From a virus, in the IMG/VR virus record IMGVR_UViG_3300032322_001295, positions 1 to 64,000 of that record: a stretch of 64,000 nucleotides of DNA. The stretch is one strand, 5' to 3'. Below the pieces are notes generated by a model. The model had not been told where the DNA came from, searched no databases, and saw only the letters and a list, made by a program, of their open reading frames with translations. Position 1 is the first letter of the stretch. The number at the start of each line of letters is the position of its first letter. Shown in pieces: positions 1-33,360 of the stretch. A program made the position numbers and the translations under genes.

Positions 1-3000
1 AATCATCTTGAAGAAATTGTAGGTAAAAAGATTGACGACATTAGTAAAAAAATCAATGACGAAAGAGAAAAAATACAAAATGAACTTGATACTGATTTTA
101 ATTCGGTAAGAGATAAGTTTGGGTTTGACGATGTGACGTTTGATGATTTATACAACAAAACCGGTAACGATGAAATAGATGCTGCTATTGATGAAGTTCT
201 TGGTAAAAAGAAAGATAAAGTAGAAAGATTTAGTGCGCTTAATGGTGTTGATAATGAAATAAAAAATGCCAAAACATTACTTAAGAATAGAGGCGCAGTA
301 AAATATGTTCCTGGTGGAGGAATAGATACAAGAACTGGAGAATGGAATAATGGTGATTATTTTACTCAACAAGCTAATCAAAGAAAGTACAAAAAAGTCA
401 ATAAAGATGTCGAAACTGAAATAGATGAAAAGACATTTTTGTCAATGCAAGATGCTGCAAAAGCGCAAGGCAAAGATTCTTTTGAGTACAACGGAGAAAT
501 GTTTATTGCCGATGACTCTAATCAGATTAAAGTTGATGGTAAAAAAGCAGTTGATAGAAGTACATTAGTAGATGACTCCCAGTTATTTGACTTTTTAGAA
601 ATAGATGATGTTAATGAACTATTCTTGAAAATGCCTACTGTTGGTGGCATGAATATAAGAGAAGAACTTAATAAAATTTCAAAAGAGTATGATGAAACAA
701 AAGTTCTTACTGCTCAAATGAAAGAAAGACTCAAAGAAATAAACAAAAATATAACAGACCAAGAGGAAATGTTATCTGTTTATAAATGGGCAAAAATGTT
801 ATCTGAAAATAAAATACTTTCTCCTATACAGGAAGAGTATATGGATATGCAAACATTTAATGAAATAAATCTACCTGCTTATATAAATAAACTAGCAGTA
901 GATAGATCTTATTTTATGAATGTTGCTATTAGTACATTATCAAAAGATGACCGAGACAACAAACTTAATGAGCTAAAAGATAACGTCATTAAGATGCAAG
1001 CACATGTTTATAATGAACTTGTTGCCGAGTTAAATGGTGATGACATTGTTGTTAATGGACAAACAGTAAAGTTTCCTAGTGAAATATCTTTGGATTCAAG
1101 CGAAACAGAAGTAATGCAAGCATATCAGTGGATGCATTATTTTATTCAAAATCTTACACCAGATCAGAAAAATGAATTTAAAGAAACATTTGATAAGTTT
1201 TGGAGCACTAAAGTAGAAAGTAAAGATTCTATACCTAGTGCAAAAGAACAAGGTATGTTTCTTGAAGGATTTGATTTAATGTTTGATTTTGAAGCATTTA
1301 AAGATGGATATACTAAGAGCAAATATCATAATAAAAACAATTCTTACAGAGAACTATTTTATTATCATGCCATAAATATGATGATGAATGTAGACCCAAT
1401 GATTGCATTTGGTGCTATAAGTAATGTTATTGATGCCGTAGATGCTAGTCAAAAGTTTGAACTTGATAAGTCAAAATATCCTGCAGGCGATCATACCGCA
1501 GAACAGATTATGAACGTAATGATAGGTATTACTCACTTGTCAGAAAACATAAAAAGAAACGAAGCAAATCCAGATGTAGCATTTATAGAATTATTAGATC
1601 ATGTAAAAAGTACCATGAAAATAGGTACAAGTAGAGAAGGCAGATTTAATAAAGCCAAAGGTTTATATGACAGAGTAAAAGATGCTGCAACTGGAAAATA
1701 TAATACAAATGGCAAACATATAAAAGATAATGTAATGTCGTTTTTTGGTTATGGTGGTGTAGGTAAATCTACTTTTATAATCAAAACATTATCCGAAATT
1801 GCATTATCATTAGGTAAAAAGAACTTTGTATTTATAGCTCCCAATATAGAGCAAAAGAACATACTTGAAAATACGGTAAAAAATATCTTTCCTAAAGGTA
1901 TTCATGCTGAATTTTACCTTGTTAGTGATTTTGTTAAAAAACAAGATCAATACAAGGATTATGTAATATTTGCCGATGAAATATCATTGTATAGCGATGA
2001 AGAAAAAAACTCCATTGCATTTAACTATAACAAAATAGGTGGTAAAAAAATATCTACCGTAGACAATGTAGGTTTTATTGATGAATCCAACACAGTATTT
2101 TTACTTGGTGACACATTACAGGCACCTCCATCTGGTGAAATATATGACAATTCACCAAGAATAGAACAGTTTACTCAACATGGTTTTAATATAACTTCAG
2201 TAAAAAGAAGTAGTTTTATTGAAATATATAAAATACAAACTGAGTTTAGAAGAAATGCTAAAAATAATGAACTAGGCCCTCCACAATTATTTGGTTATTC
2301 ATATAGCGAAGATGACAATGTAAAAAAAGGTGTCAAGTTAAATAATGACAAGGATGGATTTTTAGCTGAATCAAAAGCTGCAGTTGAATCTGGTATAGGT
2401 TATATTATTGTTCACTCTGAAAAAGAGTACAACGAAATAATAAATGACATATCACCTGATAAGCATGACAGAGTATTTTTAATGACTCAGTTAAGCAAAT
2501 CGCCACAAGGCAGAACACTAGATGGTGAGGTTTATGTTTATATGCCATACAGTACAACTGACACTAAAAGCCAGTATAACAATAATAAGTTGTACAACAT
2601 GTACATGCTTACCGCTGTTAGTCGCGCATCTCAGTTTGTATCCGTTTATACAGGTGATGGACTAGGCAACAAAAACTCTGTTAAAGTAAGTGAAGATAAA
2701 ATAGAATCATTTGATGATAGTGCTGAAGCAAAAGTTGAAAGAAAGCAACAGCTTTGGAATAGAATATCTGGTGTGGTAAAAGGTCTTACTGCTGTAAAGC
2801 CTGTACCATTGCCAGTAAGAAATACAAATAAGCCAAAAGCACCAGTTGTTCAAACAGATGACTTAAATCAAGAGGAAGAAAAACCTGAAGAAAATGCTGC
2901 ATCAAATAACACAAAAGGTAAAGGTGTAAAGTCTAACTCTAAAAAACCAAAGAAAACAACACAGGTTAAAACTAATAATAGAAAACGCAAAACGACTAAC

Positions 3001-6000
3001 AAAAATAAAAAGCAATACGAGGAACAACAAGAAGCGCTTGAAGAAGAAATTAACGAACCGATTACTGCATACGAGCAAAACGTAAGCAATCAGGGAGACA
3101 TGTCAGAAGATGAACTAGACAACTTAGATGGTAATCAAGACACAGATACAGACCATTCTAATATTGAATCATCTATTGATAATGGCGAGTTTGGATTGAC
3201 ACTTAAAACAGGCGAAAACAATGTAAATCTAGTTACAACATTTGTTAACGGCAATCCATTTGTAGTTGTTGTTGGCGGTACTTATAGAAAGCCAGATGGA
3301 GAAATAATAAAAGTTACTAGAATAATATCAAATGACGATGGCACATATTCTGTAAAAACAGATAAATTAAAAATGGTAATACCATTAGAAAAATTTAGCG
3401 AACTTGCATTATCTCCTTCTATTGATATTTTAGATAAGTATGAAAATGCTTTAATATCATTTACTCAATCAGGCATATTAACATTGTTTGGTAAAACTAT
3501 TGGCTACACTCCTGCAATGGGGCCGTTAACAAATAAAAAGGCATTAGCTGCTAAATACCAAGAAATGGCTAATGCAACGGCAATGCTTTACAAAAATCTA
3601 GGTCAAAGATTTGAAGTAAAAATTGAGATTGTTAAAAACATGCCTACAGTAGATTGGAATGGTAGTGTAAATACAGCATTTCCATACGTACTTCAAGTAT
3701 CTATTGACAATGGTAATGGTTTTGAATATTTTACAACACACTACTTACAGGATCCACAAAGAATAAATAAAACTGTAGCTGATAATGCACAACAAGAAAA
3801 TCTTGAAGTGTACAACAATACATTATTTGGAATAGTAGAAAAGCTATACAATGCAAATAGAACGGAGTTTTATACATCTGCTACTAAAAATAATATTAGC
3901 GCATCGTCATTTATAGGATTTCATAAAGACATTCCAGTAATGTCATACAGCCAAGTAAAAGACATGGTTGGTATGTATGGTATGGAACTAACAGAAACTT
4001 TCCAGGGAATTGACAAAAAAGGTTTAGCAGAAACTTACGCAATAGCGCATTTTGGAAATAAAGACAATGGACAGAAAATAATATTTCAGTCTATCACTGC
4101 AAGCAATATGAACGATGAGCAAAAAAATCTTATGCTCAACGAAGTAAATAGAATGCGTGGTATTTTGCAAAATGCTGTAAATCAAAAACTACCAAATGAA
4201 GCTGTAAATAAACAAGCACTTCAGGGTACCGATTCTATATTTGCATTTAACAACTCTTTTGCACTTTTAAATAATGCAGTAATAGCTCAAAAACTATATA
4301 CTGAAAAAGATGCAGAAAATAAAACAACTATAGAAGAAAGGATTAAAATAAGACTTGAAGTCCTTAATGACTTAGCTGCATTTTTATCTCCAGTAAAAGA
4401 TGCAGACTATAAATATAAGTATGAAAGTTTAGTATCTCAGTTTAGATTAAATACAAAAATGCAAGGCGGAAAAGAAGTAACTGGCATTGAGTACATGTCA
4501 ACTGTTAAAGGACTATTTTTAAGAATGCCTGTAATTGATATTTCTGCCGGCATACTACTTGACGATACAAAAGGTCTTGCTTCTAAAATAACAAATCAAC
4601 AAGAACTAGAAAACTATACCAGCTCATTTGCTGAAATACAATCAGAACTTGAAGATATCCTTGGCGAAGGTATTCAACTTGGCATTATAAAATCAGATTT
4701 ATATCATGGTTTTGTAGACAAGCTTGGAAAGATACACATGAACATGCATAATGGCGCATTTAATCCTAAAACATTAAGCCACGAAATATCGCACTATGTA
4801 TCAGAATTTTTGCTAACTGATGAAAAACAAGCTGAATTATTTGATGAAGTTGATAAAAAGTATGGAGTAACACAAAAACAAGGCAACTGGAGAAATGATC
4901 TTGATGCAAGAAGAACTGTTGCAGAGCACCTTGCTGATGACGGAGAAAGATATAAATCAGACAGAAGAAACCTTAAAGGTATTTCAAAGGTAATGAGGTC
5001 TTTCTTTGACTGGTTTAATAGATTTATGTCAAGAATAGGCATTATCAATGACAAAATAAATGATTTTTACTATGATTTATATGTAGCCAAAAAGTATAAA
5101 TCACTATCTGGAATGGCATTAAACACTGTTAGAGATGAAATGCCATACGATAGTCTTTACTCAAGAATAATATATGACGATTCATCTTTTAATACTGTAG
5201 CTAATAACTTTTTTTACGATAATCAGATAGCAAGACAGGTAGCTAATAATGTTGCGGAAATAGCAGCTAAAGAAGTTATTATGCCATCCATGAACAGACG
5301 TATGTTTTTAGATGGTGCTATGTCATTTACAGATATGATTAATAGGATTGAAAACAATTCTAGAGAAAAGGTCATGTATGATACTGATGAAAACGGCAAT
5401 ACGATTTATAAAGAACAAGTGATAAATGGTAAATCAATGTTTTTGCCAGTAATCAGAGAACTTACTGTTGATTACACTAAACCATTTTTGCGCTGGAACT
5501 ACAATGCTACCGATGAAAATGGAAACTCAGTAACCGGTCTGCATTTGCAATATTATGACGAAAGTATTAAAGGCTATAAAACCGCAGTTCCAAACTCTCA
5601 GGGTATATTTTTTACTGAAAAAAGACAGAGAGAAGAGTTTAGAAGATTGCTACAAAAGTCTGTTGATGAGTTTGAAATAGAAACAGTAAATGGCCTTGTA
5701 AGTGTTGTCGACAAAACAATAGAAGGCAAGATGAAACTTAAAGGAATCATCAGCAACAAAGACAAGGTTTTATACAAAAATGCAATGCTATTAAATAGCA
5801 AAGTATTTAAAGCAATGATTAATAGAATATTTCCTTCTCTTGATGTTGATACGATTATAAATAGAGATGGCCAAGTAAGATACAGTGATATTCTAGAATC
5901 TCTTATTAGAGTACAGGATGCTAATATTAGAAAAAATGAAGAGGAGTTAAATCCAATGGATAAGCAATCGGATATAATGAAGCTGATGCTTAATACTATC

Positions 6001-9000
6001 CCAGTATATCAGTTTTTACCTGATGGTAGTGTTGTTGAAATGCGCGGAAAAAAACTAAATTATGAAGTAGCAAACAAAATACTTACTGACATTCACAGTA
6101 ATCTTTGGATTGGTAATAGCCAGGATGGAATAGAAGCCTTTGCTAAAAGCATGAAAAGGTTTATTGAGAATAAAATGATGAACAACACAAATCCAACTGA
6201 ACTAAACTCTGATGCTAAATTTATAAGTGCATATTCTATTTATAAAACATATTTTGATCCACAAGCAAAACAAAGTACAGACAAGTATTATTATCCATCT
6301 CACACAAGGATTTATAACTGGAACAAACAGCTATCAACTAAAACCAGAGGCACTAAAGATTACCAGGATGCTCTTGATAGATTTTACGCTGAATATTTAA
6401 CAGCTGTAAATACAGAAAAGGAATCTGATGAAACAATCAGAAAGCAGACACCATTAACAAAAGATGAGTTTGAGCTAAATATTGCCAAAAGATCAAAGTT
6501 GTCAGAAACAATTTTAAACTCTGTTATTACGCATTTTGGCTCTCTTACATCTAATAAGTTTGAGAATGTAAAAAAATATGGCAAAGGTAAAAGAACTACA
6601 TTTGTGTCAATGGCCAAGCAATCAAGTTCTGCTCACGATACAAAGTTAAAACTAGAACAAAGCATTATATCTAACCTACAAATCAATGGAGGTTTAATGC
6701 CTGATAGATATGTCGATTTGTTTATCAATAGAAAAAGGCCATTAAAAGTAAAAGAAGGACAAGAAAAATCCAACTCTTACTTTACAATGACGGATAGAGG
6801 TATTAGATACAGGCACAAAACAAACGATCCATCTGATTTAGGTGTAATAATAATGCCTTTGGAAAATGGTAAGTTTAGAAACATGAAACCAGATGAAATA
6901 AATAAACTTACACAATACGCTAAAAACGCACAAACAAATATTAGTGGTATAATCAGAAAAGTATTTACTGATTTCTTTAATATGAGTAAGTCAAGTACAG
7001 CTAAAAATGCAGCTAAAGTATTGTCTGTTCCAAAAGTAGGTAGCAATACCCATGGTATAGAAAATCTTAGTGATGTACTTGCTCCACTTATAGCATCAAT
7101 GTATGTCTATACTGTTGAAAGAACCGTAGATCCAAACCAGATTACAGCAAAACAGCCTGTATATCCATTATATTTACAAGCATTGGCAAATACTGCAAAG
7201 GATTCTGGACAAAAAGAAAATTATGGTAAAATAACAGATGCTACTATAGATAGCATTTTAGATAAAGATGCAGGCTCTAACATATTAAAAGATGGTGAAG
7301 AGTATTTCTTCCCAACTGGATTTTATAAAGAACTTCAGGCACTTGCTGAAATTATGACTTACAATGAAAACAATCCAACAATTTTAAGTCTTGATGGCAG
7401 AAGAAAGCTTTACACTATTGGCAACTCTCATAATTTTAACTATAAGTTTTCTAATGGTAAAAATGATTCACTTGTTGAAAAGTTTGAAGAAGTTGTAAAA
7501 GGCCCACATACAAATCCAAATGCTAGAGGAAGTAAGATATTGAATCCAATACTTGAAAGAAAAGGAATAATAACTTCAACGCCATACATGATGGGTATAG
7601 ATTCAACTGGTAAAACCGCTGAGTTGAAAAACATGACTGTACAAGACAACCTACATGCGGCATTAGCAAACTTTACCAAAAATGAAAATCAAAAGGCATT
7701 AACCTACAACATATCTCCAGTTTTAATACCTGTAAACAATGGAGGTAATCGTGGTAGACAACATTTGTTTGAAGTTAGACTAGGTCATTTTAACGGTAAT
7801 GGAAATGGATTTTTAACAAAACAAACCATTGATAATGTTGATACATTTAAGCTTGATGTAAGAAATATTGCAAGTCAACTTAAACGTGGTTTTGCAATAA
7901 AAGAAGAAGCACAGGTTAATAGTATTAACAGGTGGATGAACTTTTTAATGAATCCAGCTAATAACAAAATCACAAACAACGCAAGTTCTTATTTTGCTTC
8001 ACTAGGATTAGGTCTGTCTCCAATCGATACAACTATACCTGGATGGAAAGCACAACGAGATGCTACGGTTCCTGCATTAGTAGAGTATTTAAAAAATTAT
8101 GACGCTTGGATAATTGATGATGATGTAGTTGGATTTGAAGGTAGTGGGTTAAGATTGGGTTCTGATTTCTTAATAATCAAAGCTAACAAAAATGACAAAG
8201 GTGGCAGACTTCATTTAGGGCATGATGCTTCTATGATGAATAAAGTACTCACAAGAAATGAAGACGGATCACTAAAATTTAGAAGTCTTGCGCAACAACT
8301 ATTCAATTATTCAAACTATAACAATACAGTAACAATCGATGTTGATGAAAACAATCAAATAAAATTTAAACTACATGAAGTATTAAGAACAGATGATTTT
8401 AACAATGAGCAGATTTATGTAAACTACATAGATAATCTAGGTTTGACTCAAACATATATGTTTACAGATGATAATTTACAGTTTATCATAGATTCATTAT
8501 TTGAAAAACACTATAAAGAAACTAATGAAATAGCATTAGCGGATGGTTATAAAATGACCAGTGAAAACGTTTTTGATTTATATCCATACGAAGACAATAT
8601 AAAAGTAGTAGATGGTATTAATATTTATGGCACTACTCCATCTGTTGTTTGGAAAGGTCTTATTATTGGCCATGCAATGGTTAACTATTTTTCCGATCAT
8701 GCTATAGAGGGTACAGAAGCGAATCATCTTTCCAGCGTTATTTATGAAAACGAAACTGGTCCATTGACATATGGTGTAAATAGAAACAAACGTGCTTTAT
8801 CGCATACTTCTACAGGTTTTACTCCTTCGTTTAAAACACATAATGGCATGGATGAAGAATCCAGAATTATGGTTATTAAAGACTTAAAAGTAAATGCTTC
8901 TATATCAACATTACTTGGAGAAATAAACAAAGAACACATTGTTTTTGATGGTCAAAGTTTTAACAATCCATTTTCAATGGAGATGTACTTTAACAGTATT

Positions 9001-12000
9001 GGAGGAAATAATGGTAGCTTAAATAGAAGAATCCAAAAATCTATAGCACAGCAGTTTAACTACAAAGATGGTTCTACTTTTTTGAAAAAACATGCAGGAT
9101 TTATTGTATCAAAATCTATGATGGATTCTAGTGTTGACATGGCTAACTTGTTTGAATACATGTTAAATCCAGCACTAAGACTAGTCATTAAAGGTGAAGA
9201 TTTAAATAAAATATCATTTTTAAAAAAATCTGATATTGATAACCTGGCTAATGATAGCTTATATCAAAGGTATTTGATTTATTTTGATCAATCTGCTACT
9301 GAAACTGCATTAAAGCAAACGCTTAGTAATATCAACAGTAAGTTTGGTAGTCTTAAAACTATGCTTGAAGGCAGCATTAAATACAAAAACAATGCTCCGG
9401 CCGTTGATTCTATTTTGGCAGATTGGAAAAACAGTCAGTTTAATGATACTATTGTAGGTCAATACGATTTTATTAGTAAAGTATTAGCGGATATTAACAA
9501 TCAAGGTTTATTATCACAAGAAGGAGATAAGGATCATGGTAGAGCTATTGAAATGCTTGTTGATTTTTATGCTGAATACAGAGCTAAAAATCCCGATACC
9601 TACAAAACAAAATATCCATATTTATCATCAATACAGTTTACTGGTAATAAAAAGGACCAAACCAAAGATTTTGAGATGCCGTTTGTTGCATTTAATAAAT
9701 CTGCAGGGGCAACACATTCTGATGCAAATGGTCAGTTTAACCAGGGCAGGCCTATGCCAATGTTTGTTAAAGATGGCGACGCTGCACCTACTAACTTTTA
9801 CGAACTTGTTGATTACTGGAAAAATCAAAAAGAAGATGCTCCTTATGATAAATGGACATATATGTTTGACAATACACAGGAAATAACACAATTAAATCCT
9901 GAAAGAGAAATAGATGACAACGAAGAATCGCCAATGGTTCAGGCAATGTCTATTATTCTTGCAAATCCAAATAGTTTAAATACAGGTCTTGCACAAGAAA
10001 TAGCAACAGACTTATCTTCTCTAATGCGCGTAGGATTAGAGAATGTAATGCGCTTTATAACAAATGAAGGTAAATGGAGTGAAGATGTAGACCAAAGAAT
10101 AAAAGATCTAAAAATACAAACAAGTGATATTATATCTGAAACTGGCGTTGTTTTATCTAATAAAGAAATAGCAACTATTGAAAACTTTGTAAAAAGTAAA
10201 ATCAAAAAGTCTATGTCTCAATCTGATGACACTACAATGCTATCAGAAATTATCAGTGACGACCAAATAAGTTTAAATGTTTCTCATGGTGCAGTAACTA
10301 GAGCCCAGCAATACGTAGCAGCATTCTTAAGAAAAGAAGCTGTTAAGAGAAAAGTAGATGCGATGCGTCTTGTACAAGCCGGTGGTAATTTTATTGATAT
10401 AGTGGAACATAAAGAAACTGGTGAAGTATTTATGTTAGCAGAAGCATATAAGCATGCTGCAAAAATGGGTGTAAGTTTTGATTCTCTTTTTGATGTAAAC
10501 TCTGTAAGAGGATTAAAGCATACTACAATTGATGCCAAACCTGATTTATCTGTAGAACAACTAGCACAGGTTAGAGCTATTGATACAATCATGAATCAGG
10601 CAATAGCGGAAAATCCAGCAAATGAAAAACAAATCAAAAAGGATTTTTCAAGGATTAAAATGAAATATCTGGCAGAGCAAAACCTACTAAATGTATCAAA
10701 AGGAGAAGCTATTGTTCCAGCAGTAATGTTTAAAAAGTTTAACATACCTAGCAATGTTGGACTCAATGAGATATTTAGATTGTATGGCAAAAAAGATGGT
10801 ATTGTCAATGAGACCAATCTAATTGAAGCTAGTTCAGACTACAATGCGACAAAAGAACTTATACAAAGCTTTGTAAATGATAACATTTCTTTTGAAATGA
10901 AATACAATAGCAATGGTAAGCCTAGAGTTGAAGTGCTGTACAATGAAAACCAATCAGGATTAAATACTTACTTTGAAATAATGTTTGTTGATGGATTAAA
11001 CAAATACCTCAAAGACAACTATAAAAAGTTTGGAAGTATTTATGCTAAGGTTGACAAGGAAATGGAGTTGAAGTATGGAGACTCATATAGAGCAATGAAA
11101 GAAGGTTCACTTGAAAAATCTGTAGAAGATATTAAGCAAGAACTAAGAACAAGACTTGCTGAAGAATCTACTGCTTTTGCTCAATCTGAAATAGCAAACT
11201 TAGTTGATAAATATACCGATGCCATAACATCTGTAGCAATAACGCTAAAAGATAATATTGGTATGCGTATTCCATCAGGACCAGGTTCTGGTTTTATTAA
11301 CAACATTGTAGGGTTTATAAATGATGCTAGTTCTGTTGGATATGTAAACACTATTAAAAACCTTATTGATGGTTCTGACCAAGACGTTGACCAGTTTACA
11401 ATCTACTATTTGTCAAGTACAATGCTTGACTCTGGTAAGATGTCTATTTTGGAATATAACAACTGGAAAGATAAGCAAAAGAAAGATGGCAACTATAATG
11501 TTTTGTCTGACGAGGAAGCTAAGGTTATTAACAACAAACTAATCAGACATCTTCAAAGATACTATTCAGATCCATTAAATGCTGAACTTACTATGGCAGC
11601 TATTGACCTTGACCCGGTAAAAAAAGCTGCTGATGGTACATATAGAGAATTATTTAAAGATGGCGACTTAGCGCATAACATTGGGCATTCATTTGTATAT
11701 AGAAATATTGCAATGGACGGACAGGCAGTAGGTCCATTTGCTAATGCTCAAAAACTACAAACATTGCTTTATTCTGGTTATAGTATGAACCAAAGAAGGG
11801 GTATAGATTCAAGTATTTACAACTTTAAAATTAACAAAGTAGAAAATGCTATTGGCCAGTTAGAAGATGAGTACAGCAAAGTTCCAGTGTACATGGAAAT
11901 GCTTATAAATGCAGCTACGGATAATCCAAAGTTGTTGATTTTAGGTGCAATGAATATCACAATGAACAATTCTGATATGGCATCTGCTATGATGTTTGCA

Positions 12001-15000
12001 CCAAAGGATATTCAAGATTACATGAGGTCAATGCCCGGTAATGAAAATATGAATGAAGTAGATGCAGTATTGAATTTCTTGAAACTTGATGCAAATAAAG
12101 ACATATTCAATTATGTAAAATCAAACTCAGGTATGTACAATGGTGGATTTTCTAGGTCTTACTACAATACAGCATACAATTATTACAAAAAACTACAAGC
12201 GCATGGTTCAGAATATGAAGAACAATACAAAAATAACTTAAATAAAAATAGTGACATTTTCGATAGTATGGTTTCGTTCCTTATCAATGATGTAGGATAT
12301 GATGAGGCATTTATAAATACAGCAATAGCAACCGCTCAAACAGAAAACAAAGGTGATGTTTTGCTATCTATGATTAGAAATATTAATATCAATAACATTA
12401 GTAAAGAGATTTCTAAAAAACACAATATTCTTAAAAATGTACTTGATAACTTTATAAAAGATAACCTTGAAGAAATAACTGACAACGAGTTTAAAGCTGA
12501 AATAGAAAAAGCGCTTAACTCTAAAGATGTTCAAGCATCATACGATATTGTTAACAGCATAGCTAGCATGTCGCCTATTGATAATTTGGCTAATATTAAC
12601 GAAGAAAGCAAAGCATTGTCTGAGAAGTACAAAAAGTTTTTTAAAGACCTAAAATCTTACAAGGACAATCTCAAGAAGAATAAAAATCTTTCTAGAAAAA
12701 CCGATCCTAGTTATATTAATGAAGTATATCTTGTTACTAAATATGCTATGCTTGGTGATATTATGAGCGATTTAGTTAAGGTTGCTAATATCAATCAGTT
12801 TAAACAATCAAAAGCTTATGATCAAAAAAAGTTTGAAAACGATTTTACGTTTGCCACTGGTTATACTATTGATGAACTTATTGGTATCTATGATAGATTT
12901 AACAGCTGGAAAAAAGACAACGGAGCAAGTAGCACAATAGGTGACTACTTTGACGCCAATCCTAATGAGAAAAAACCTATTGAAGCAGTAAGAGAAACAG
13001 CTTTTAAAACAAAAGCACACACTATGTCTCAGGTTGATTTTTCCTATATGAAAGATAGCATAGAGTCACCTGTAACTGGAGAAGTAATAAACTACTACGA
13101 AGACTACCACAAGATATTTGATTTTGCATCTATACTGCTTTCTAGGCCGGATGTAATGGAAAGCTTTAGAGCATCACAAATGTTTAAAGACATTAACTCT
13201 TCAATATTTAACATAGAGTCTACGGAAATACAATCTATGATAGACACTATAACAGATAACATTGCTTACGATATACTTCCAGAAGCTAAAAGCATAGTTT
13301 TAAAAGAAGAGATTAGTAAGTATTTTGTCCATTTGTATCTTTCCGAAATCAACAACAATGGTTTTGAATCAATAGTAAAAGAAGATATATTTAAAGCATT
13401 AGAAAAGTTTAATATTCTTACGCTTCCAATGACAGCTGGTTCATCAACGTCAAATGGAATGATGCATAATATTGGCAATCCTATTGGTGTAAGAAACTTT
13501 ATATCAAACTTTCCAGAGTTTTTTGATACAAGAATAAGACAATCAGAAATGCAAAGGTTGAAAGAAATGAGTAGTAAGTTTACTGCACAAGACCTTGAAT
13601 CTGCGTATGAGTTTATAGACAGAATAGAAAAGTATTCATACAACCGTATGGATTATCTTGAAGTGCAAAAGTCAAGAGTGCAAAACGCTAATGAAAATGA
13701 AATGCTTAGAGATGGCTTTAATAAGCTGTCAAATGAAACACAAACATTGCTAGCGTTGTACCATATTCTTAAGAACCAGTTTGACACAAGTAGGTCGTTT
13801 TTTGGTGAAGTATTACCTAAAAAGTTTCTTATCGATTATTCTAAATTTTTAAAAGAAGTATTGCCTACTAAAGAAATAAGTCAGGATTTGAATAATATTT
13901 CAGAAATGATTTTGTCTAACACAAGTCTTGATTTGCTTAAAAATGAAAAACGTATCTACAAAGATGGTAAAGAGTTTTCACAGGCCCCAGCTGCTTGGTA
14001 TGGCGTAGCCAAGCATTATAAGAAAACAATACAAACGCAAAAATCTAAAGTAGGTACGACAATAAGAACATTTGCTCTTGGTACTACCAATGGTATAAAT
14101 GGAGTTGCACTTACCCAGGGATCTGCTACAAAAACATCATTGTCAAATGTAGTACCATTTGATTCTGTAATCAATATGTACAATGATACAGATGCAATGG
14201 GTAATCCTATTACAATATCACTTAGTTATACTCCTACAATACTAAGAAACTTAAATATACCAATGTCATTCTCATTGGATTTAAGGCCGCACGCTTACAT
14301 CAAAAATATATTGCATGGGCATTTAGAAAATGACATACAAAACGCTATTAAAAGGCAGACACAAGAAGGCGTAGAACTTACTCCACAGGATGTATTGCAG
14401 ATAGTTAATGATGTTATGTCAAGAGATTTAAATAATGTTTATAACAAAAAAGGTATTCCTGCATTGCAAGATAAGACAACTTCAATGGATATGGAAAACA
14501 TGATAAGAAATAATGTTTTTAATATTACCGTTAACTCTATTTTGCAAAAACATGGCCCAAATGCTGATGCAATGTTGCAGTCATTAGATGGTAAAATGCT
14601 TAAAGATGAATACTATTATAGCGATATAGCCCCTTCGTACACATTGCACGCTGCGTTAAACATGCTTAAAGCTGAAGGCAAGCCGTTTACTATAGAAAAT
14701 CTTAGAGCAATAGAATCTATACCATCAATAGAATTATTTAGCGATACGTATGGCGTTCAATCAAACGAAGATGCTCCATTGGTAAACTTACTTGGTACTT
14801 TTGGTAATTACTTTACCAGAGAAAATGCTAGAGATTCTGGCTATGTGGTTGCCGTAAACATGAAAGGTCCAAACGGAGTAGGCACAAAAGAATTGTTCTA
14901 CGAAGCAGCAAAAGAAATATTTCAAGATACAAGTTTAAAAAACGATCAACTTAATACATTGCTTGCTAATATTCTTATAGCTGATTCTATAGGAATGTCT

Positions 15001-18000
15001 ACAGCTGATATGAAAAATAGAATAAACTCATTGTCAACTGTATCAACAAGCAATATAGATTTATTAAAAGAAGTTGCTTTTAAAACTTACTACAAACATG
15101 TTGATAGAAATATTGATGAAGATATAAGCAAAAGACATTCTACTAAATATCACAACATCAATAAGAGTATTGCAGAAGGAAAAATAACTGAACTTTTTGG
15201 CTCTATAAAATCAACTGTAGAAACATTGCAAAGGTATCAAGAAACACCGTATGAAGTTGGCGATATGATACATTTTCCTGATGGTATAGTTGGTATTGTT
15301 ACTAATGTTACATCAGAAAACAATGTAAACTATGTTATTAACCATAAGCTTACAGACAATAGAAACATATTCAATGCACAAAGAGCTGTTGTAAGTCTAG
15401 AAAACATCATGCAAAAAAACAACACAAGGTTTGCACTTGATGGTTTTGTTAGAACAATAGCCGGCATTATGCCAAATGTTGAGTACAGATATGTTAATGA
15501 CGAAGAAGCCCGTCAAATACAAAGGTCTGAACATGACAGCGTATCTTTCTACCAAGATGGTATTGTTTACATAAATGTAGATAAAGCTGATAGAGGTGTT
15601 GCTATTCACGAGTTTGCGCATCCATTGACATTGGCAATGCAGATAGAAAAGCCTGAACTATTTAACGCAATAGCGCAACAGGTTTCTCAATCTAGTGTAA
15701 TGGACTATGTTAGAAAAATGTACAAGGATGATCTTGATACAGAAGAAGCAATGATACTTGAAGCAATACCAACATACATTCAGTTTAGGTATTACGCAAG
15801 ATTGGCGCACGAAATGTCACCAGAAGAAAGAGCAAACTGGGAAATGTTTTTTGCTGAGGCAGGTTCTATATTTAAAGAAGCGTTAATCGGTGATGTAAAT
15901 GCAGAATCAAGTATTGACAATGTTGATTTTAAAACTGCTGACCTTAACTCTATATCTGATGCTATCTTAAATGATATGCTAAAAGGTAAGGAGTTTGTAG
16001 TCAGAAACAAAGAAGCGTTTAATATTGCTAGGTTCTTGCCATATACCATGCGGGCATCATCTGCTTCATCGGTCAAGAATATAAACTTAACAAATATAGA
16101 TACGTTATTTCAGCGAAAGTCGCACAATACAAAGGATGACAAAGCTAGAAGACAAATAATGGATTCTATTCAAGGTAATACATTCTCTGGATTATCAGGT
16201 ACTTATGACTTGACTATGAGAAACAAAGATTTCTATGACCCTAATGGTAATTACGATCAAAAACGCAAAGAAAAGTTTATTGTTAAAATAGTTGAAAACG
16301 AAATGGCGTTTTATGGTGGTATAGAAAATAACATTATTCAGTTCTTAAATGAACTTAAAGTACTTGAACCATTAGCTGCAGCAAAGCAATCATTATTTGC
16401 ATCTTGGAATAAGCGCTACGATTTACCTAATGCTACAGAAGTACAGAAAGAGCAACTTACTCAAAACATACAAAAAATGATGAACAAACTTGGCTACAAT
16501 CCAAATTTAGACCAAGCAATGATGCTAAGTGAAGCGGAAAAAACACTTGGATTAAAACTGCCCAATGGTGTAAAACTCGATAACACAATTGTCATTGTTC
16601 ATAACATTGGTAAGCCGGCACAAGAAATATCAATATTAAATGTTTCTCCAGAATACCTTAGTAATCATGGTATGGAAAAGAATAATATTGCTGCTGCGTT
16701 TATTGGAGAAAACTTAACTAATAAAGAAAAGAAACGTGCTAAAAAATTACAAAACGTAACTTTATCTAATGATAACGGACATATTGAAGCAGTTAAAACA
16801 GCTGTAATTGCTATGGCTATTAAAAAATCTAGTCCTGGTACAGTCATTAGAAAAGTAGGTGCCATGCATGTAAATGGTAGTAACATATCTGTAAGAAGTC
16901 GTGATGTGGATGACACTGTAAGACAGATTGAGTTGCTTGTTGACAATGTTCCGCAATTGCGTGATAATCTAGAAGTGGATATAAGAGATATTGTATCTGA
17001 TAAAACTTTGTACAACATGAACTTATACAAAGTACCTGTTGGAACTAGACTGCTCAACTATTTTAGAACGCTAATATCTACTTTAAAGCCTAATGATAAC
17101 TATAAAAAAAGTGTACAAAACACAATAGATCAAGGTATTAAAGTATTTGAAAATGGTGATAACTCATTTTACCAAGATATTCAAAAAGCTGTATTTGGTA
17201 GAATAATGCACTTAGCTGAAGAACTAGATAGCGATGTAGCAAAGGCTGCCAACGAAGAATACCAATTTTTATTACAAACGTATAGAGAACTTACTGGTTA
17301 CAACGAGATTAATACTCAAAGATTTAACGAGCTTTCATTTGATGAAAAGCTAATACAGACGGCAGACCGCTGGACAGGAGGAATAAGAACATGGTTATTT
17401 GACCAAGTTGATCTTGCTTCTAGAAAAGGTGTTAATGAAATGGTTCCGTTTAACAAAGAGTTGAACAAAAGAACAAAAACATTAAACACACTTTCTGGTA
17501 ATATTTTAAGTTATGGCCTTGACAAATCACATGATTTATTTAAACCATTATTTAAAAAGGCAACCGGTTATGATCAAAATGGTAAAGAAGTTCAAATATC
17601 AACTCACGAAATACATTGTGATATAAATGATGCTGAAACTGCAAGAGCATTAGCCAACAGAGAAATAACTACAGAACAATTAGAGTTTGGTAAATGGTTA
17701 GCCGATAGCATGTATGAAGAGTTTGTTCAATACGTAATGACCGTTGAACGCAAAAACATATCACAGCGCGCAAATATGACTGAGGTTGAGCTTAGAGCAG
17801 CAGCAGAAAATGAAGTAGCAAGACGATACAAGAGAGGTATGATGCCTGTATTTGTCCGTTCTACGGGTTCTGCTTTAAGTGAAGGCAAGTTGATGGAAGC
17901 ATTAAATATGTACATGAAAAACGCTGGTAGATTTATCGGTGGTGCATTGTATGAAGAGTTTACTCAAACAGAAGATGCAGATTACCAAAAAGAATCATTC

Positions 18001-19836
18001 AGAAAACTTATGTCGCCGTTCTGGAATCAGTTCCAAAATGCAGAACTATATGGTGGTTCATTTAGAATGAAACTTCTTGGATTAGACCTAAAAGTTAGAA
18101 ATCAGGATAGATCTCTTGAAGTAATTGCTCCGGAACTACAAAACTCATTGTCATATAACCTTCAGAATATAGGTAACTATACCATGATGGCATCTAAGCG
18201 TACAAAGTACATGCAAAGAGCAGTAGCATCTGCAAATATTGCAATGGATATGCTTAGAGGAGAAGAAGCAATGCGCGGTATAAATACTAAAGACGCAAGA
18301 GAGCATGTAGAAAACTATATTAACAGACAGATTTATGGTAATCTTCCAGAAATGCCTAAAGTAATGCTTGGCAATATATCTGTAAATATTGACTACATGT
18401 TAGATGCTAGTAACAGATTTATAAATATGGCACACCTTGCCGTTAAGCCTGGTGTTGCAATGAAAAACGTAGTAGCTACAACATCTAAACTTTTAATTAA
18501 TGCTTTGATAAATCAGATATCAGGTAAGAACTTTAATATTGCTAATGTTACTCGCGCTGTAGAGCAAATGTTTTCAAATGGTGAAAAAATAAGAGCATTA
18601 AATGAAAAGTATCAGTTTGTAAACATGAGTGAAAAAGATTTAATCAATCACTTTCAACATGTAGTAAGTAAAGCAAATGCTACTGAGCCAGATGCTCAAA
18701 TGATTCTTAACTGGTTTGGTGATTATTACAACCAGCTTATTGGTGGTATTGCTCAAATGATTAACGATGGTACTTATGATGCACACGACGAGTTTGGTAA
18801 TTACGATGAAACAAAAGACAAACGATTTGAAGGAGAAGATGGTGAATATATCAAAAACGCTATTATTGAACAGCAGTACAAAGAAGGATATCACATTCTT
18901 GATAATGGCAAAATGACACACGCATACACTCAAAGACAAGAGAACCATGTAAAATTGCAAGTGCAAAGATTTGTTGGTGAGTTAACCGATCCTAAATACA
19001 AAAACTTAGCATCAAGTTATTCATTTGTTCGTGCTGCGTCATCAATGAGAAGCTATATGTACAACGTAGCACAAGCATGGTGGAAAAACCCTAGCCAAAC
19101 AGTACATCTTGGTGGTTTTAAAGTAATTGAAGTTGATGGTAAAAAAGAAACTGTTTGGGCCCCAGAACTTACAGAGGGTATGATTAATACATTAATTTAT
19201 TGCGCTAAAGGTTTGAGAAATGCTGTAAAAACAGGTACATTTGATGATTATAAAAACATGTCTAGTTTCCAAAAGCGTAATCTTATAGCAATGGCTACGT
19301 TTACTGGTATCATGGCCGGTGTTTATCTTCTTGCAGATTCAATGTTATACGATGAAGATAGAAAGAAAGTTAAAAAATACCGTTATGAAAAAGACCCTAA
19401 AACAGGTAAGCGTAAAAGAGTAGATATTGATGAGCCTTGGATTTCTGAAAGATTATTATCTATGTTGTATGATACAAAATATGATATGCCAATAAAAGGT
19501 GACTTGTCTATGACTGAAATGTTTGCCAAAAATATACTTTTAAAAGGTGTTGAAGAACAACTGTCTTATGTATCTCCATATAGAATGTTTCAAGATATAG
19601 GTAGTATGCCATCAACTCATATTATGCAAGCTGATAATGTAGCTCAAACATTTGTTTCTACATTGATGTTGCCCTGGACATTGTATCAACAGAAAGATAT
19701 TGAAGGTCTTACTAATGAACTTGATGAGTATTTCTATGATTTAAGTAAAAACATGCCTCTTGGTGGTGGTTACCGTGACATACATGACACATACGATTAC
19801 ATGTTAAATTATATTGGTGAATCAACTAAAAAATAA
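1..19836 (+). CDS. Giant polyvalent protein: SF1 helicase, two zincin motifs and crAss-like RNA polymerase core (5' end outside window)
   Basis: The frame has no stop from base 1, so the GTG at 133 is not the true start; at least 6,611 residues are encoded. Numbering below counts from that GTG. Residues 537-835 form a superfamily 1 helicase: Walker A GYGGVGKST (539-547), acidic D615-E616, GDTLQ (659-663), a motif-VI-like TAVSRA (827-832). Residues ~890-1010 are a charged low-complexity linker. HExxH motifs lie at 1550-1554 (HEISH) and 5159-5163 (HEFAH). FDGQ at 2938-2941 and RIP (3712-3714) followed by D3749-Q-D3751-V-D3753 match the two double-psi-barrel motifs of crAss-like virion RNA polymerases. 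A hydrophobic segment lies near 6383-6405. In crAss-like phages such giant proteins are packaged and injected to transcribe early genes; that role, and proteolytic maturation, are inferred. No frameshift is seen. Confidence 0.8.
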   Translation, partial: NHLEEIVGKKIDDISKKINDEREKIQNELDTDFNSVRDKFGFDDVTFDDLYNKTGNDEIDAAIDEVLGKKKDKVERFSALNGVDNEIKNAKTLLKNRGAVKYVPGGGIDTRTGEWNNGDYFTQQANQRKYKKVNKDVETEIDEKTFLSMQDAAKAQGKDSFEYNGEMFIADDSNQIKVDGKKAVDRSTLVDDSQLFDFLEIDDVNELFLKMPTVGGMNIREELNKISKEYDETKVLTAQMKERLKEINKNITDQEEMLSVYKWAKMLSENKILSPIQEEYMDMQTFNEINLPAYINKLAVDRSYFMNVAISTLSKDDRDNKLNELKDNVIKMQAHVYNELVAELNGDDIVVNGQTVKFPSEISLDSSETEVMQAYQWMHYFIQNLTPDQKNEFKETFDKFWSTKVESKDSIPSAKEQGMFLEGFDLMFDFEAFKDGYTKSKYHNKNNSYRELFYYHAINMMMNVDPMIAFGAISNVIDAVDASQKFELDKSKYPAGDHTAEQIMNVMIGITHLSENIKRNEANPDVAFIELLDHVKSTMKIGTSREGRFNKAKGLYDRVKDAATGKYNTNGKHIKDNVMSFFGYGGVGKSTFIIKTLSEIALSLGKKNFVFIAPNIEQKNILENTVKNIFPKGIHAEFYLVSDFVKKQDQYKDYVIFADEISLYSDEEKNSIAFNYNKIGGKKISTVDNVGFIDESNTVFLLGDTLQAPPSGEIYDNSPRIEQFTQHGFNITSVKRSSFIEIYKIQTEFRRNAKNNELGPPQLFGYSYSEDDNVKKGVKLNNDKDGFLAESKAAVESGIGYIIVHSEKEYNEIINDISPDKHDRVFLMTQLSKSPQGRTLDGEVYVYMPYSTTDTKSQYNNNKLYNMYMLTAVSRASQFVSVYTGDGLGNKNSVKVSEDKIESFDDSAEAKVERKQQLWNRISGVVKGLTAVKPVPLPVRNTNKPKAPVVQTDDLNQEEEKPEENAASNNTKGKGVKSNSKKPKKTTQVKTNNRKRKTTNKNKKQYEEQQEALEEEINEPITAYEQNVSNQGDMSEDELDNLDGNQDTDTDHSNIESSIDNGEFGLTLKTGENNVNLVTTFVNGNPFVVVVGGTYRKPDGEIIKVTRIISNDDGTYSVKTDKLKMVIPLEKFSELALSPSIDILDKYENALISFTQSGILTLFGKTIGYTPAMGPLTNKKALAAKYQEMANATAMLYKNLGQRFEVKIEIVKNMPTVDWNGSVNTAFPYVLQVSIDNGNGFEYFTTHYLQDPQRINKTVADNAQQENLEVYNNTLFGIVEKLYNANRTEFYTSATKNNISASSFIGFHKDIPVMSYSQVKDMVGMYGMELTETFQGIDKKGLAETYAIAHFGNKDNGQKIIFQSITASNMNDEQKNLMLNEVNRMRGILQNAVNQKLPNEAVNKQALQGTDSIFAFNNSFALLNNAVIAQKLYTEKDAENKTTIEERIKIRLEVLNDLAAFLSPVKDADYKYKYESLVSQFRLNTKMQGGKEVTGIEYMSTVKGLFLRMPVIDISAGILLDDTKGLASKITNQQELENYTSSFAEIQSELEDILGEGIQLGIIKSDLYHGFVDKLGKIHMNMHNGAFNPKTLSHEISHYVSEFLLTDEKQAELFDEVDKKYGVTQKQGNWRNDLDARRTVAEHLADDGERYKSDRRNLKGISKVMRSFFDWFNRFMSRIGIINDKINDFYYDLYVAKKYKSLSGMALNTVRDEMPYDSLYSRIIYDDSSFNTVANNFFYDNQIARQVANNVAEIAAKEVIMPSMNRRMFLDGAMSFTDMINRIENNSREKVMYDTDENGNTIYKEQVINGKSMFLPVIRELTVDYTKPFLRWNYNATDENGNSVTGLHLQYYDESIKGYKTAVPNSQGIFFTEKRQREEFRRLLQKSVDEFEIETVNGLVSVVDKTIEGKMKLKGIISNKDKVLYKNAMLLNSKVFKAMINRIFPSLDVDTIINRDGQVRYSDILESLIRVQDANIRKNEEELNPMDKQSDIMKLMLNTIPVYQFLPDGSVVEMRGKKLNYEVANKILTDIHSNLWIGNSQDGIEAFAKSMKRFIENKMMNNTNPTELNSDAKFISAYSIYKTYFDPQAKQSTDKYYYPSHTRIYNWNKQLSTKTRGTKDYQDALDRFYAEYLTAVNTEKESDETIRKQTPLTKDEFELNIAKRSKLSETILNSVITHFGSLTSNKFENVKKYGKGKRTTFVSMAKQSSSAHDTKLKLEQSIISNLQINGGLMPDRYVDLFINRKRPLKVKEGQEKSNSYFTMTDRGIRYRHKTNDPSDLGVIIMPLENGKFRNMKPDEINKLTQYAKNAQTNISGIIRKVFTDFFNMSKSSTAKNAAKVLSVPKVGSNTHGIENLSDVLAPLIASMYVYTVERTVDPNQITAKQPVYPLYLQALANTAKDSGQKENYGKITDATIDSILDKDAGSNILKDGEEYFFPTGFYKELQALAEIMTYNENNPTILSLDGRRKLYTIGNSHNFNYKFSNGKNDSLVEKFEEVVKGPHTNPNARGSKILNPILERKGIITSTPYMMGIDSTGKTAELKNMTVQDNLHAALANFTKNENQKALTYNISPVLIPVNNGGNRGRQHLFEVRLGHFNGNGNGFLTKQTIDNVDTFKLDVRNIASQLKRGFAIKEEAQVNSINRWMNFLMNPANNKITNNASSYFASLGLGLSPIDTTIPGWKAQRDATVPALVEYLKNYDAWIIDDDVVGFEGSGLRLGSDFLIIKANKNDKGGRLHLGHDASMMNKVLTRNEDGSLKFRSLAQQLFNYSNYNNTVTIDVDENNQIKFKLHEVLRTDDFNNEQIYVNYIDNLGLTQTYMFTDDNLQFIIDSLFEKHYKETNEIALADGYKMTSENVFDLYPYEDNIKVVDGINIYGTTPSVVWKGLIIGHAMVNYFSDHAIEGTEANHLSSVIYENETGPLTYGVNRNKRALSHTSTGFTPSFKTHNGMDEESRIMVIKDLKVNASISTLLGEINKEHIVFDGQSFNNPFSMEMYFNSIGGNNGSLNRRIQKSIAQQFNYKDGSTFLKKHAGFIVSKSMMDSSVDMANLFEYMLNPALRLVIKGEDLNKISFLKKSDIDNLANDSLYQRYLIYFDQSATETALKQTLSNINSKFGSLKTMLEGSIKYKNNAPAVDSILADWKNSQFNDTIVGQYDFISKVLADINNQGLLSQEGDKDHGRAIEMLVDFYAEYRAKNPDTYKTKYPYLSSIQFTGNKKDQTKDFEMPFVAFNKSAGATHSDANGQFNQGRPMPMFVKDGDAAPTNFYELVDYWKNQKEDAPYDKWTYMFDNTQEITQLNPEREIDDNEESPMVQAMSIILANPNSLNTGLAQEIATDLSSLMRVGLENVMRFITNEGKWSEDVDQRIKDLKIQTSDIISETGVVLSNKEIATIENFVKSKIKKSMSQSDDTTMLSEIISDDQISLNVSHGAVTRAQQYVAAFLRKEAVKRKVDAMRLVQAGGNFIDIVEHKETGEVFMLAEAYKHAAKMGVSFDSLFDVNSVRGLKHTTIDAKPDLSVEQLAQVRAIDTIMNQAIAENPANEKQIKKDFSRIKMKYLAEQNLLNVSKGEAIVPAVMFKKFNIPSNVGLNEIFRLYGKKDGIVNETNLIEASSDYNATKELIQSFVNDNISFEMKYNSNGKPRVEVLYNENQSGLNTYFEIMFVDGLNKYLKDNYKKFGSIYAKVDKEMELKYGDSYRAMKEGSLEKSVEDIKQELRTRLAEESTAFAQSEIANLVDKYTDAITSVAITLKDNIGMRIPSGPGSGFINNIVGFINDASSVGYVNTIKNLIDGSDQDVDQFTIYYLSSTMLDSGKMSILEYNNWKDKQKKDGNYNVLSDEEAKVINNKLIRHLQRYYSDPLNAELTMAAIDLDPVKKAADGTYRELFKDGDLAHNIGHSFVYRNIAMDGQAVGPFANAQKLQTLLYSGYSMNQRRGIDSSIYNFKINKVENAIGQLEDEYSKVPVYMEMLINAATDNPKLLILGAMNITMNNSDMASAMMFAPKDIQDYMRSMPGNENMNEVDAVLNFLKLDANKDIFNYVKSNSGMYNGGFSRSYYNTAYNYYKKLQAHGSEYEEQYKNNLNKNSDIFDSMVSFLINDVGYDEAFINTAIATAQTENKGDVLLSMIRNININNISKEISKKHNILKNVLDNFIKDNLEEITDNEFKAEIEKALNSKDVQASYDIVNSIASMSPIDNLANINEESKALSEKYKKFFKDLKSYKDNLKKNKNLSRKTDPSYINEVYLVTKYAMLGDIMSDLVKVANINQFKQSKAYDQKKFENDFTFATGYTIDELIGIYDRFNSWKKDNGASSTIGDYFDANPNEKKPIEAVRETAFKTKAHTMSQVDFSYMKDSIESPVTGEVINYYEDYHKIFDFASILLSRPDVMESFRASQMFKDINSSIFNIESTEIQSMIDTITDNIAYDILPEAKSIVLKEEISKYFVHLYLSEINNNGFESIVKEDIFKALEKFNILTLPMTAGSSTSNGMMHNIGNPIGVRNFISNFPEFFDTRIRQSEMQRLKEMSSKFTAQDLESAYEFIDRIEKYSYNRMDYLEVQKSRVQNANENEMLRDGFNKLSNETQTLLALYHILKNQFDTSRSFFGEVLPKKFLIDYSKFLKEVLPTKEISQDLNNISEMILSNTSLDLLKNEKRIYKDGKEFSQAPAAWYGVAKHYKKTIQTQKSKVGTTIRTFALGTTNGINGVALTQGSATKTSLSNVVPFDSVINMYNDTDAMGNPITISLSYTPTILRNLNIPMSFSLDLRPHAYIKNILHGHLENDIQNAIKRQTQEGVELTPQDVLQIVNDVMSRDLNNVYNKKGIPALQDKTTSMDMENMIRNNVFNITVNSILQKHGPNADAMLQSLDGKMLKDEYYYSDIAPSYTLHAALNMLKAEGKPFTIENLRAIESIPSIELFSDTYGVQSNEDAPLVNLLGTFGNYFTRENARDSGYVVAVNMKGPNGVGTKELFYEAAKEIFQDTSLKNDQLNTLLANILIADSIGMSTADMKNRINSLSTVSTSNIDLLKEVAFKTYYKHVDRNIDEDISKRHSTKYHNINKSIAEGKITELFGSIKSTVETLQRYQETPYEVGDMIHFPDGIVGIVTNVTSENNVNYVINHKLTDNRNIFNAQRAVVSLENIMQKNNTRFALDGFVRTIAGIMPNVEYRYVNDEEARQIQRSEHDSVSFYQDGIVYINVDKADRGVAIHEFAHPLTLAMQIEKPELFNAIAQQVSQSSVMDYVRKMYKDDLDTEEAMILEAIPTYIQFRYYARLAHEMSPEERANWEMFFAEAGSIFKEALIGDVNAESSIDNVDFKTADLNSISDAILNDMLKGKEFVVRNKEAFNIARFLPYTMRASSASSVKNINLTNIDTLFQRKSHNTKDDKARRQIMDSIQGNTFSGLSGTYDLTMRNKDFYDPNGNYDQKRKEKFIVKIVENEMAFYGGIENNIIQFLNELKVLEPLAAAKQSLFASWNKRYDLPNATEVQKEQLTQNIQKMMNKLGYNPNLDQAMMLSEAEKTLGLKLPNGVKLDNTIVIVHNIGKPAQEISILNVSPEYLSNHGMEKNNIAAAFIGENLTNKEKKRAKKLQNVTLSNDNGHIEAVKTAVIAMAIKKSSPGTVIRKVGAMHVNGSNISVRSRDVDDTVRQIELLVDNVPQLRDNLEVDIRDIVSDKTLYNMNLYKVPVGTRLLNYFRTLISTLKPNDNYKKSVQNTIDQGIKVFENGDNSFYQDIQKAVFGRIMHLAEELDSDVAKAANEEYQFLLQTYRELTGYNEINTQRFNELSFDEKLIQTADRWTGGIRTWLFDQVDLASRKGVNEMVPFNKELNKRTKTLNTLSGNILSYGLDKSHDLFKPLFKKATGYDQNGKEVQISTHEIHCDINDAETARALANREITTEQLEFGKWLADSMYEEFVQYVMTVERKNISQRANMTEVELRAAAENEVARRYKRGMMPVFVRSTGSALSEGKLMEALNMYMKNAGRFIGGALYEEFTQTEDADYQKESFRKLMSPFWNQFQNAELYGGSFRMKLLGLDLKVRNQDRSLEVIAPELQNSLSYNLQNIGNYTMMASKRTKYMQRAVASANIAMDMLRGEEAMRGINTKDAREHVENYINRQIYGNLPEMPKVMLGNISVNIDYMLDASNRFINMAHLAVKPGVAMKNVVATTSKLLINALINQISGKNFNIANVTRAVEQMFSNGEKIRALNEKYQFVNMSEKDLINHFQHVVSKANATEPDAQMILNWFGDYYNQLIGGIAQMINDGTYDAHDEFGNYDETKDKRFEGEDGEYIKNAIIEQQYKEGYHILDNGKMTHAYTQRQENHVKLQVQRFVGELTDPKYKNLASSYSFVRAASSMRSYMYNVAQAWWKNPSQTVHLGGFKVIEVDGKKETVWAPELTEGMINTLIYCAKGLRNAVKTGTFDDYKNMSSFQKRNLIAMATFTGIMAGVYLLADSMLYDEDRKKVKKYRYEKDPKTGKRKRVDIDEPWISERLLSMLYDTKYDMPIKGDLSMTEMFAKNILLKGVEEQLSYVSPYRMFQDIGSMPSTHIMQADNVAQTFVSTLMLPWTLYQQKDIEGLTNELDEYFYDLSKNMPLGGGYRDIHDTYDYMLNYIGESTKK

Positions 19837-32436: not shown

Positions 32437-33360
32437 TTAAAATATTAAATTTGGAATAACTTGTTTAGATAATACTCCAGCATCGTGTAATAAAAGAAGC
32501 ACCGTAAACAGTCCTCTTCTCGTAAATGATGGATAAGTTGTGTTTTTGTCTGCATCATGTATGTTGACTCCAAAACCATATGCTACAAACTCTTTAGCAA
32601 GAAAGTAGTTGTTTTTGTAGTTTGCATCATTCATATCTTGTATAATGATGCCATGCTCTACCAAAACTTTCATTGTGTCTCGCAGTAATACTTTGTACTT
32701 ATTGAACAAGAACTTATGAAAATCTAGCACATGGGTGTCTTTCTCAAAGTTCTCAACAATAGTTTTATTGTCTTCGCACATAGCACGGTAGGTCTTTATA
32801 GTTAGTCCGTACTCTCTGTAAAATGAATCTTCTTCGACCTCAGTATGTATTCTTTCAAGCAGCTTAGATCTTCTGTTCTTTAACTCTTTATCTTCTTCGA
32901 CATCTTTCTGCTTCTCAACATAAGTCTTAGGTACTATTACTGTTGTTTCTACAATATCTTTACGATATGCATTCTTTAGCATCGTAGTAAATATCTTTTC
33001 GAGATACAACTTCATGTCGTAGTTACACCAAGTGTACATCTGTGCAAGCCAAAGATGTGATACAACATAGTAGCACATATCAGCTTTAGAGAATACACAG
33101 GCCATAGTAATGGTTCTGCCAATCTTATTGAGTTCTATATTTGTTTCCGCTATAAACTCATCTTTTGGCACCCAGTTACAAGCAAGTATGTAAGAGCTAC
33201 AAACAAGAGGACATTCGATGTACAAATGCCCTCCAATAAATTTGTGTCTGTATTGCTTTGTAAAGCTCCTAAGCATAGAATCTTTGACTATCTTAGGCTT
33301 TGGCTCTTTAATTACCTTTGGCTTTTCAGCAGGCTTTCTACCCATGTTTGTGCTTAGCAT
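32437..33360 (-). CDS. Unknown protein between SSB and ERF genes
   Basis: A 307-residue protein with a Lys/Pro-rich N-terminal 30 residues, a Cys-rich middle (CPLVCSSYILACNW), a central charged helix with KQKDVEEDKELKNRR and a C-terminal alpha/beta part. It overlaps the ERF gene by 23 bases and precedes ssb by two bases. Context points to DNA replication or recombination. The C-terminal layout faintly recalls phage antirepressor DNA-binding domains, but I would not assign it. Confidence 0.65.
   Translation of the reverse strand: MLSTNMGRKPAEKPKVIKEPKPKIVKDSMLRSFTKQYRHKFIGGHLYIECPLVCSSYILACNWVPKDEFIAETNIELNKIGRTITMACVFSKADMCYYVVSHLWLAQMYTWCNYDMKLYLEKIFTTMLKNAYRKDIVETTVIVPKTYVEKQKDVEEDKELKNRRSKLLERIHTEVEEDSFYREYGLTIKTYRAMCEDNKTIVENFEKDTHVLDFHKFLFNKYKVLLRDTMKVLVEHGIIIQDMNDANYKNNYFLAKEFVAYGFGVNIHDADKNTTYPSFTRRGLFTVLLLLHDAGVLSKQVIPNLIF

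Follow-up and report, generated by a model that had tools for sequence, protein, structure and literature searches.

A 7,490-residue phage protein that very probably unites a crassviral-type transcription and ejection block with a helicase in a single chain

How would a phage fold, package and mature a protein whose gene runs for at least 6,611 codons? The window, a stretch of 64,000 nucleotides (bases 1–64,000 of the 87,877-base virus record IMGVR_UViG_3300032322_001295), opens inside such a gene. The preliminary description had reported a frame without a stop from base 1 to 19834, a protein beginning upstream, a mass of ~750 kDa or more and a place among the largest phage proteins. Our stop scan of window 1–19836 agrees with the first point: frame 1 contains a single stop, at 19834–19836, and the two other forward frames contain 552 and 924 stops. 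The giant-gene stretch holds zero Ns.

The last 123 bases of the record are an exact copy of the first 123, so the record is circularly closed. Followed leftwards, as the preliminary description had advised, the frame continues through the junction for 879 further open codons and reaches an ATG at record 85118, directly 3' of the stop of the preceding gene. The full protein has 7,490 residues, a mass of 850 kDa and a pI of 5.65. The upstream start and the mass estimate thus both hold, and the protein is longer than the 7,312 aa given for the largest protein of bacterial viruses in a 2021 survey, which later records may exceed (PMC8553790).

The window starts within the gene, and an assembly chimera uniting separate genes, the error against which the preliminary description had warned, would be one explanation of such a frame. 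This explanation is already refuted and keeps a negligible probability. Besides the exact 123-base end overlap, the gene lies internally and stop-free in two independent records near-identical to the window's, IMGVR_UViG_3300044732_001099 (open frame of 7,505 aa, 7,503 from ATG) and IMGVR_UViG_3300043773_000921 (7,499 aa, 7,497 from ATG). Similarly long ORFs occur in at least seven divergent lineages, and dN/dS stays at 0.03–0.16 in each 500-codon block of the whole gene. On the basis of the closure, the two intact records and the low dN/dS, we conclude that the giant ORF is real and selected as one frame over its full length; a chance origin or misjoining is excluded.

We propose that the giant is, with high probability, a virion cargo protein in which the crassviral transcription and ejection block is fused in one chain. 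Its predicted modules follow the order N-terminal region, Superfamily 1 (SF1) helicase, zincin 1, two-barrel-type RNA polymerase, zincin 2 and a C-terminal module with a hydrophobic helix. The features are as follows (window coordinates, all on the plus strand).

1..19836: giant gene, residues 880-7490 and the stop; residues 1-879 lie at record 85118-87754, outside the window
1726..2664: predicted Superfamily 1 helicase domain, aa 1455-1767, from family alignment and motifs
2746..3078: charged low-complexity linker, aa 1795-1905, roughly at the position of a nuclease-like domain in the relative G003
4561..5163: predicted zincin-like metallopeptidase domain 1, aa 2400-2600, from alignment with crassviral zincins
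4780-4794: HEISH of zincin 1, aa 2473-2477
9511..12003: predicted crassviral-type virion RNA polymerase core, aa 4050-4880, from HMM and model
11377..11391: putative catalytic Asp triad DQDVD, aa 4672-4676, on invariant Asp columns
15382..15921: predicted zincin-like metallopeptidase domain 2, aa 6007-6186, from HMM
15607-15621: HEFAH of zincin 2, aa 6082-6086
18115..19194: conserved C-terminal region, aa 6918-7277, homologous to a separate 1,525-aa ORF of phage MT835470
19276..19353: hydrophobic helix near the C-terminus, aa 7305-7330, at a hydrophobicity peak

Alone, the giant protein has no significant match in Pfam, PHROGs or PDB sequences. Scans of viral contigs with single pieces of it returned only the two near-identical records, and a profile search of genome contigs with the motif alignment found no prophage. 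A scan with the large terminase subunit TerL, however, led to G003 (82.8 kb), whose TerL is 44% identical to that of the window. G003 carries a single ORF of 6,790 aa in the same genomic place (gene order muzzle-809-645-giant) and colinear with the window's giant; the C-terminal parts share 19% identity over 1,349 aa (E 2e-21). In total, colinear giants of about 6,400-6,800 aa, each encoded by a single ORF, occur in at least seven lineages besides that of the window. The G008 giant measures 6,829 aa from ATG, and stop-free open frames reach 6,627 aa in G012/G013/G019, 6,416 in G015, 6,691 in G016, 6,689 in G017 and 6,812 in G018. All giants show a P-loop at the helicase position, a DxD[VI]D-type motif and zincin 2, and most also contain zincin 1.

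With Elemovirus as root, the TerL tree places the giant-bearing phages in one cluster (UFBoot 71), apart from Crassvirales (96), and a group of Crassvirales plus MT835470 (97) stands beside them. With Crassvirales sampled from Steigviridae and Suoliviridae only, the giant-bearing phages do not fall within the Crassvirales clade. We therefore refer to them as a sister lineage of Crassvirales, provisionally, since the sampling of Crassvirales is limited and some TerLs are partial. The TerL of G017 (record 11217-13973) consists of two matching pieces ~1 kb apart within one 1,061-aa open frame, which suggests an in-frame insertion such as an intein.

The genome setting supports the attribution to a phage made in the preliminary description. 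TerL, portal and major head protein match head and packaging PHROGs and resemble those of crAss-type phages, to whose TerLs the window TerL is 26-29% identical. After TerL, portal and the head genes comes the gene for a muzzle-like virion protein of 1,366 aa; five genes for proteins of 630-1,525 aa then lead up to the giant, behind which lie more late genes, among them those for a tail-fibre-like protein and an endolysin. There are two endolysin-like genes in the window, one beside the tail genes (22770-23717, plus strand) and one in a minus-strand block (35286-36146); the minus strand also encodes an ERF-family recombinase at 33338-34147 (Pfam ERF, 43.9 bits).

Comparable late blocks are found in Crassvirales. 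In crAss001, the muzzle gp44 is followed by C1 gp45, C2 gp46 and gp47, with gp49 and gp50 adjacent on the other strand; mass spectrometry of virions detected gp45, gp46, gp47, gp49 and gp50, which were taken to be ejected cargo (PMC10172136). The order in cr1_1 (muzzle, 682 aa, 597 aa, 4,551 aa, 2,007 aa) is that of the window. The 4,551-aa protein has a zincin at 2001 and the polymerase motif at 3445, the 2,007-aa protein has a zincin at 517, and the gene break falls between the polymerase and zincin 2. The polymerase and zincin 2 are similarly spaced, by 1,623 residues in cr1_1 (summed over this break) and by 1,410 in the window giant. Total sizes also lie close together: 6,102 aa for gp47, gp49 and gp50 of crAss001, 6,558 aa for cr1_1 and 6,416-7,503 aa for the single-chain giants. 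As judged from gene order, the giant gene occupies the place of the ejected cargo and RNA polymerase genes of Crassvirales.

A gene between virion genes and a tail-fibre-like gene with an endolysin could also encode a structural protein of the tail or baseplate, such as a fibre or a tape-measure-like protein, that is large for mechanical reasons; the largest phage protein in the 2021 survey is itself a baseplate protein (PMC8553790). We reject this explanation as very improbable. The giant has no fibre or tape-measure match in Pfam or PHROGs, its helicase, polymerase and zincin motifs are conserved, and crassviruses are short-tailed podoviruses.

An HMM of 73 crassviral RNA polymerases matches the giants of the window (E 2.9e-7), G013 (1.2e-12), G015 (1.7e-12), G008 (7e-10), G016 (5e-9), G003 (1e-6) and G017 (3e-6), and more weakly G018 (best domain 2.9e-5). 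The best value against the other ORFs of the window phage and G003 was 0.12, and shuffled or reversed controls gave E 7 or worse. The window's GSDQDVD falls on the catalytic GSDFDID columns of the profile. When 10 giants are aligned jointly with 26 crassviral polymerases, R-x-P and the three Asp of DxDxD are invariant, as are K4136 and Q4338 further upstream. The Gln in the triad is unique to the window's lineage; this position is Tyr in the other giants and usually Phe in crassviral polymerases. Since the triad reads DQDVD rather than DYD(V/I)D, the catalytic competence of the window's polymerase is only putative. The pattern DxDGD has no match in the giant, and a reading in which the polymerase is absent was dropped when alignment of the relatives with crassviral polymerases revealed the diverged DxD[VI]D. 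The virion polymerase of coliphage N4 is a T7-type single-subunit enzyme; this type has no Pfam or PHROG match in the giant.

Scores of hhalign against single crassviral polymerases were low, with the best hits (phi14:2 gp66, crAss001 gp50) located at the catalytic motif. The modelled structure of aa 4050-4950 (pLDDT 60, pTM 0.61) has the phi14:2 polymerase 6vr4_A as its best PDB match (probability 1.00, E 2.9e-3), followed mainly by bacterial RNA polymerase beta' chains; this model is supporting rather than independent, because its alignment contains crassviral sequences. AlphaFold with a four-sequence, family-only alignment gave a pLDDT of 31. Taken together, the polymerase identity of the core is well supported by sequence comparison. 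The window's own matches for the polymerase and for zincin 1 are individually weak, and both assignments draw on the family.

The predicted helicase carries GYGGVGKST (Walker A), DEIS, GDTLQAPP, TEFRRN, SKSPQGRTLD and MLTAVSRA. Motifs I, II, III, IV, V and VI are all present in order, which assigns the domain to SF1. By itself the window helicase scores below the Pfam threshold, but it is 26% identical to that of G003 over 330 aa (E 9e-12), and the latter exceeds the Pfam cut-offs (Viral_helicase1 40.7 bits, cut-off 21; AAA_30 33.1, cut-off 27). Directly after its helicase, the G003 giant has a PD-(D/E)XK nuclease-like domain (aa ~1758-1875, L038:14698-15400 region; PDDEXK_1 26.1 bits, cut-off 22), which is unrecognisable in the window's protein, where the charged linker stands instead. 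We found no P-loop pattern in the crassviral cargo sequences examined, and the cr1_1 gp076 N-terminus and crAss001 gp47 have no Pfam helicase match. The helicase therefore looks like an addition of the giant-bearing clade.

Zincin 1 aligns with the zincins of crAss001 gp47 and cr1_1 gp076, including a downstream 'AE' third-ligand site. Its HMM match is weak in the window (best domain 7.6e-4) and better in G018 (1e-6) and G003 (2e-4). The HExxH of zincin 1 is present in the giants of the window, G003, G013, G017 and G018, and was not found in those of G008, G015 and G016. For zincin 2, an HMM built from MT835470 and Elemovirus proteins only matches the window giant at aa 6013-6179 (7e-14), and the HExxH occurs in every checkable giant. 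Elemovirus MT497075 encodes a 3,667-aa 'structural protein' (L014:2-11005) that shares the zincin 2 domain with the giants, a hint that the zincin cargo module predates Crassvirales. Near the C-terminus, the hydrophobic peak recurs at the same relative position in the G003 and G008 giants. In about half of the 7,490-residue chain, no domain was identified.

Two HExxH sites beside an SF1 helicase also recall polyvalent proteins, for which one to five zincin-like domains, varied enzymes and a neighbourhood of late virion genes are published features (PMC5512222). The giant may thus be a generic polyvalent protein in the sense of Iyer and colleagues, a counter-defence effector cargo with zincins and a helicase, in which the similarity to polymerases is vestigial. 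We consider this unlikely. The polymerase signature is kept in 8/8 lineages, colinear with crassviral polymerase cargo, and the marker domains LPD, ArdC (ArdC-N), MuF, ART and PBECR have no Pfam match in the giant. The rivalry is partly one of naming, since the polyvalent category is broad and can include virion polymerases.

How might a fused crassviral cargo work? The unbroken gene under purifying selection, the domain signatures, the colinearity with Crassvirales and MT835470 and the late-block location can be read from the sequence itself; packaging, ejection, polymerase activity and self-cleavage of the giant are inferred. The chain would be made late and packed with the DNA near the portal. 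On ejection it would be threaded through the tail in a partly unfolded state, the route suggested for crassviral cargo (PMC10172136), and refold in the host. There the polymerase would transcribe early genes, as the virion polymerase of phi14:2 is reported to start early transcription (PMC7886860, PMC10136315). The helicase probably aids the opening of promoters or DNA, or genome entry by pulling the DNA in. Before packaging or once inside the host, one zincin or both would probably cleave the chain into functional pieces; such processing by zincins was proposed for polyvalent proteins (PMC5512222). Cleavage of the giant is not assured, because the N4 virion polymerase has a zincin-type domain and yet is packaged uncut (PMC5512222). 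A fused crassviral cargo with two zincin sites is thus our candidate answer to the question of packaging and maturation.

More tentatively, and as a possibility that we would rather doubt than expect, the sister lineage may use a self-processing DNA-phage polyprotein. A few copies of the 850 kDa chain would enter each virion, and the zincins, acting during assembly or once the chain is in the host, would free the helicase, the RNA polymerase and the membrane modules in a fixed stoichiometry, with helicase and polymerase jointly pulling in and transcribing the genome. By arithmetic, six copies would weigh 5.1 MDa, which equals the capsid cargo capacity estimated for crAss001 (PMC10172136).

These findings would extend the crassviral virion polymerase past the sampled Crassvirales into a sister clade in which the whole cargo block stays a single gene. 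Fused and unfused blocks offer a natural comparison for the assembly of ejected machines, and a helicase joined to a putatively injected polymerase turns a motor for helicase-assisted genome entry and transcription into a testable idea. At 850 kDa, the chain would be an extreme case of protein threading through a phage tail. That crAss-like phages have giant virion polymerases, reaching about 6,000 aa, was already known (PMC10136315). What appears new is that a separate clade carries the whole block in a single chain throughout, that a helicase is fused to it and that the window's chain exceeds 7,312 aa; fusions as such may have been mentioned earlier in the literature on crassviral polymerases.

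Among known systems, the cargo genes of Crassvirales (phi14:2 gp66; crAss001 gp47, gp49 and gp50; cr1_1 gp076 and gp077) come closest, in the same late position after the muzzle and C1/C2-type genes. In cr1_1, the order of zincin 1, RNA polymerase DxDxD and zincin 2 is that of the giant. In contrast to the one chain of the giant, Crassvirales distribute the domains over two to four genes (two or three proteins in the systems named here), no SF1 helicase was detected in the crassviral cargo proteins examined, the middle position of their triad is F/Y instead of Q in the window giant, and sequence identity between the two is very low.

MT835470, a 117 kb human-gut phage, shares zincin 2, and three of its ORFs in a row (983, 804 and 1,525 aa) correspond, in order, to aa 4842-4935, 6057-6186 and 6918-7244 in the C-terminal half of the giant. 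Here, however, each of them is a gene of its own, and the catalytic motif is interrupted (GSDY | DIDKAYIM) by a ~1 kb intron-like insertion (MT835470.1, L016:9083-10180) with an endonuclease-like ORF inside (9416-10120). Disruptions within this catalytic motif were described for zeta-group crAss-like phages (PMC7886860). The 3,667-aa Elemovirus protein also has the zincin 2 domain of the giant but is about half its size; neither a helicase P-loop motif nor a significant polymerase-profile match was found in it.

The polyvalent proteins of Iyer et al. 2017 (PMC5512222) resemble the giant as multi-enzyme phage proteins with zincins in a late-gene context, and the giant, a late-gene phage protein with several predicted enzymatic domains including zincin-like HExxH, is of their general type; it differs in being centred on a polymerase. 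The virion polymerase of coliphage N4 and other Schitoviridae, about 3,500 aa long, is packaged, ejected and fused to a zincin (PMC5512222, PMC12633501), but the motif of the giant is of the two-barrel DxDxD type and not the T7-type. The resemblance to N4 is therefore one of analogy, not of membership.
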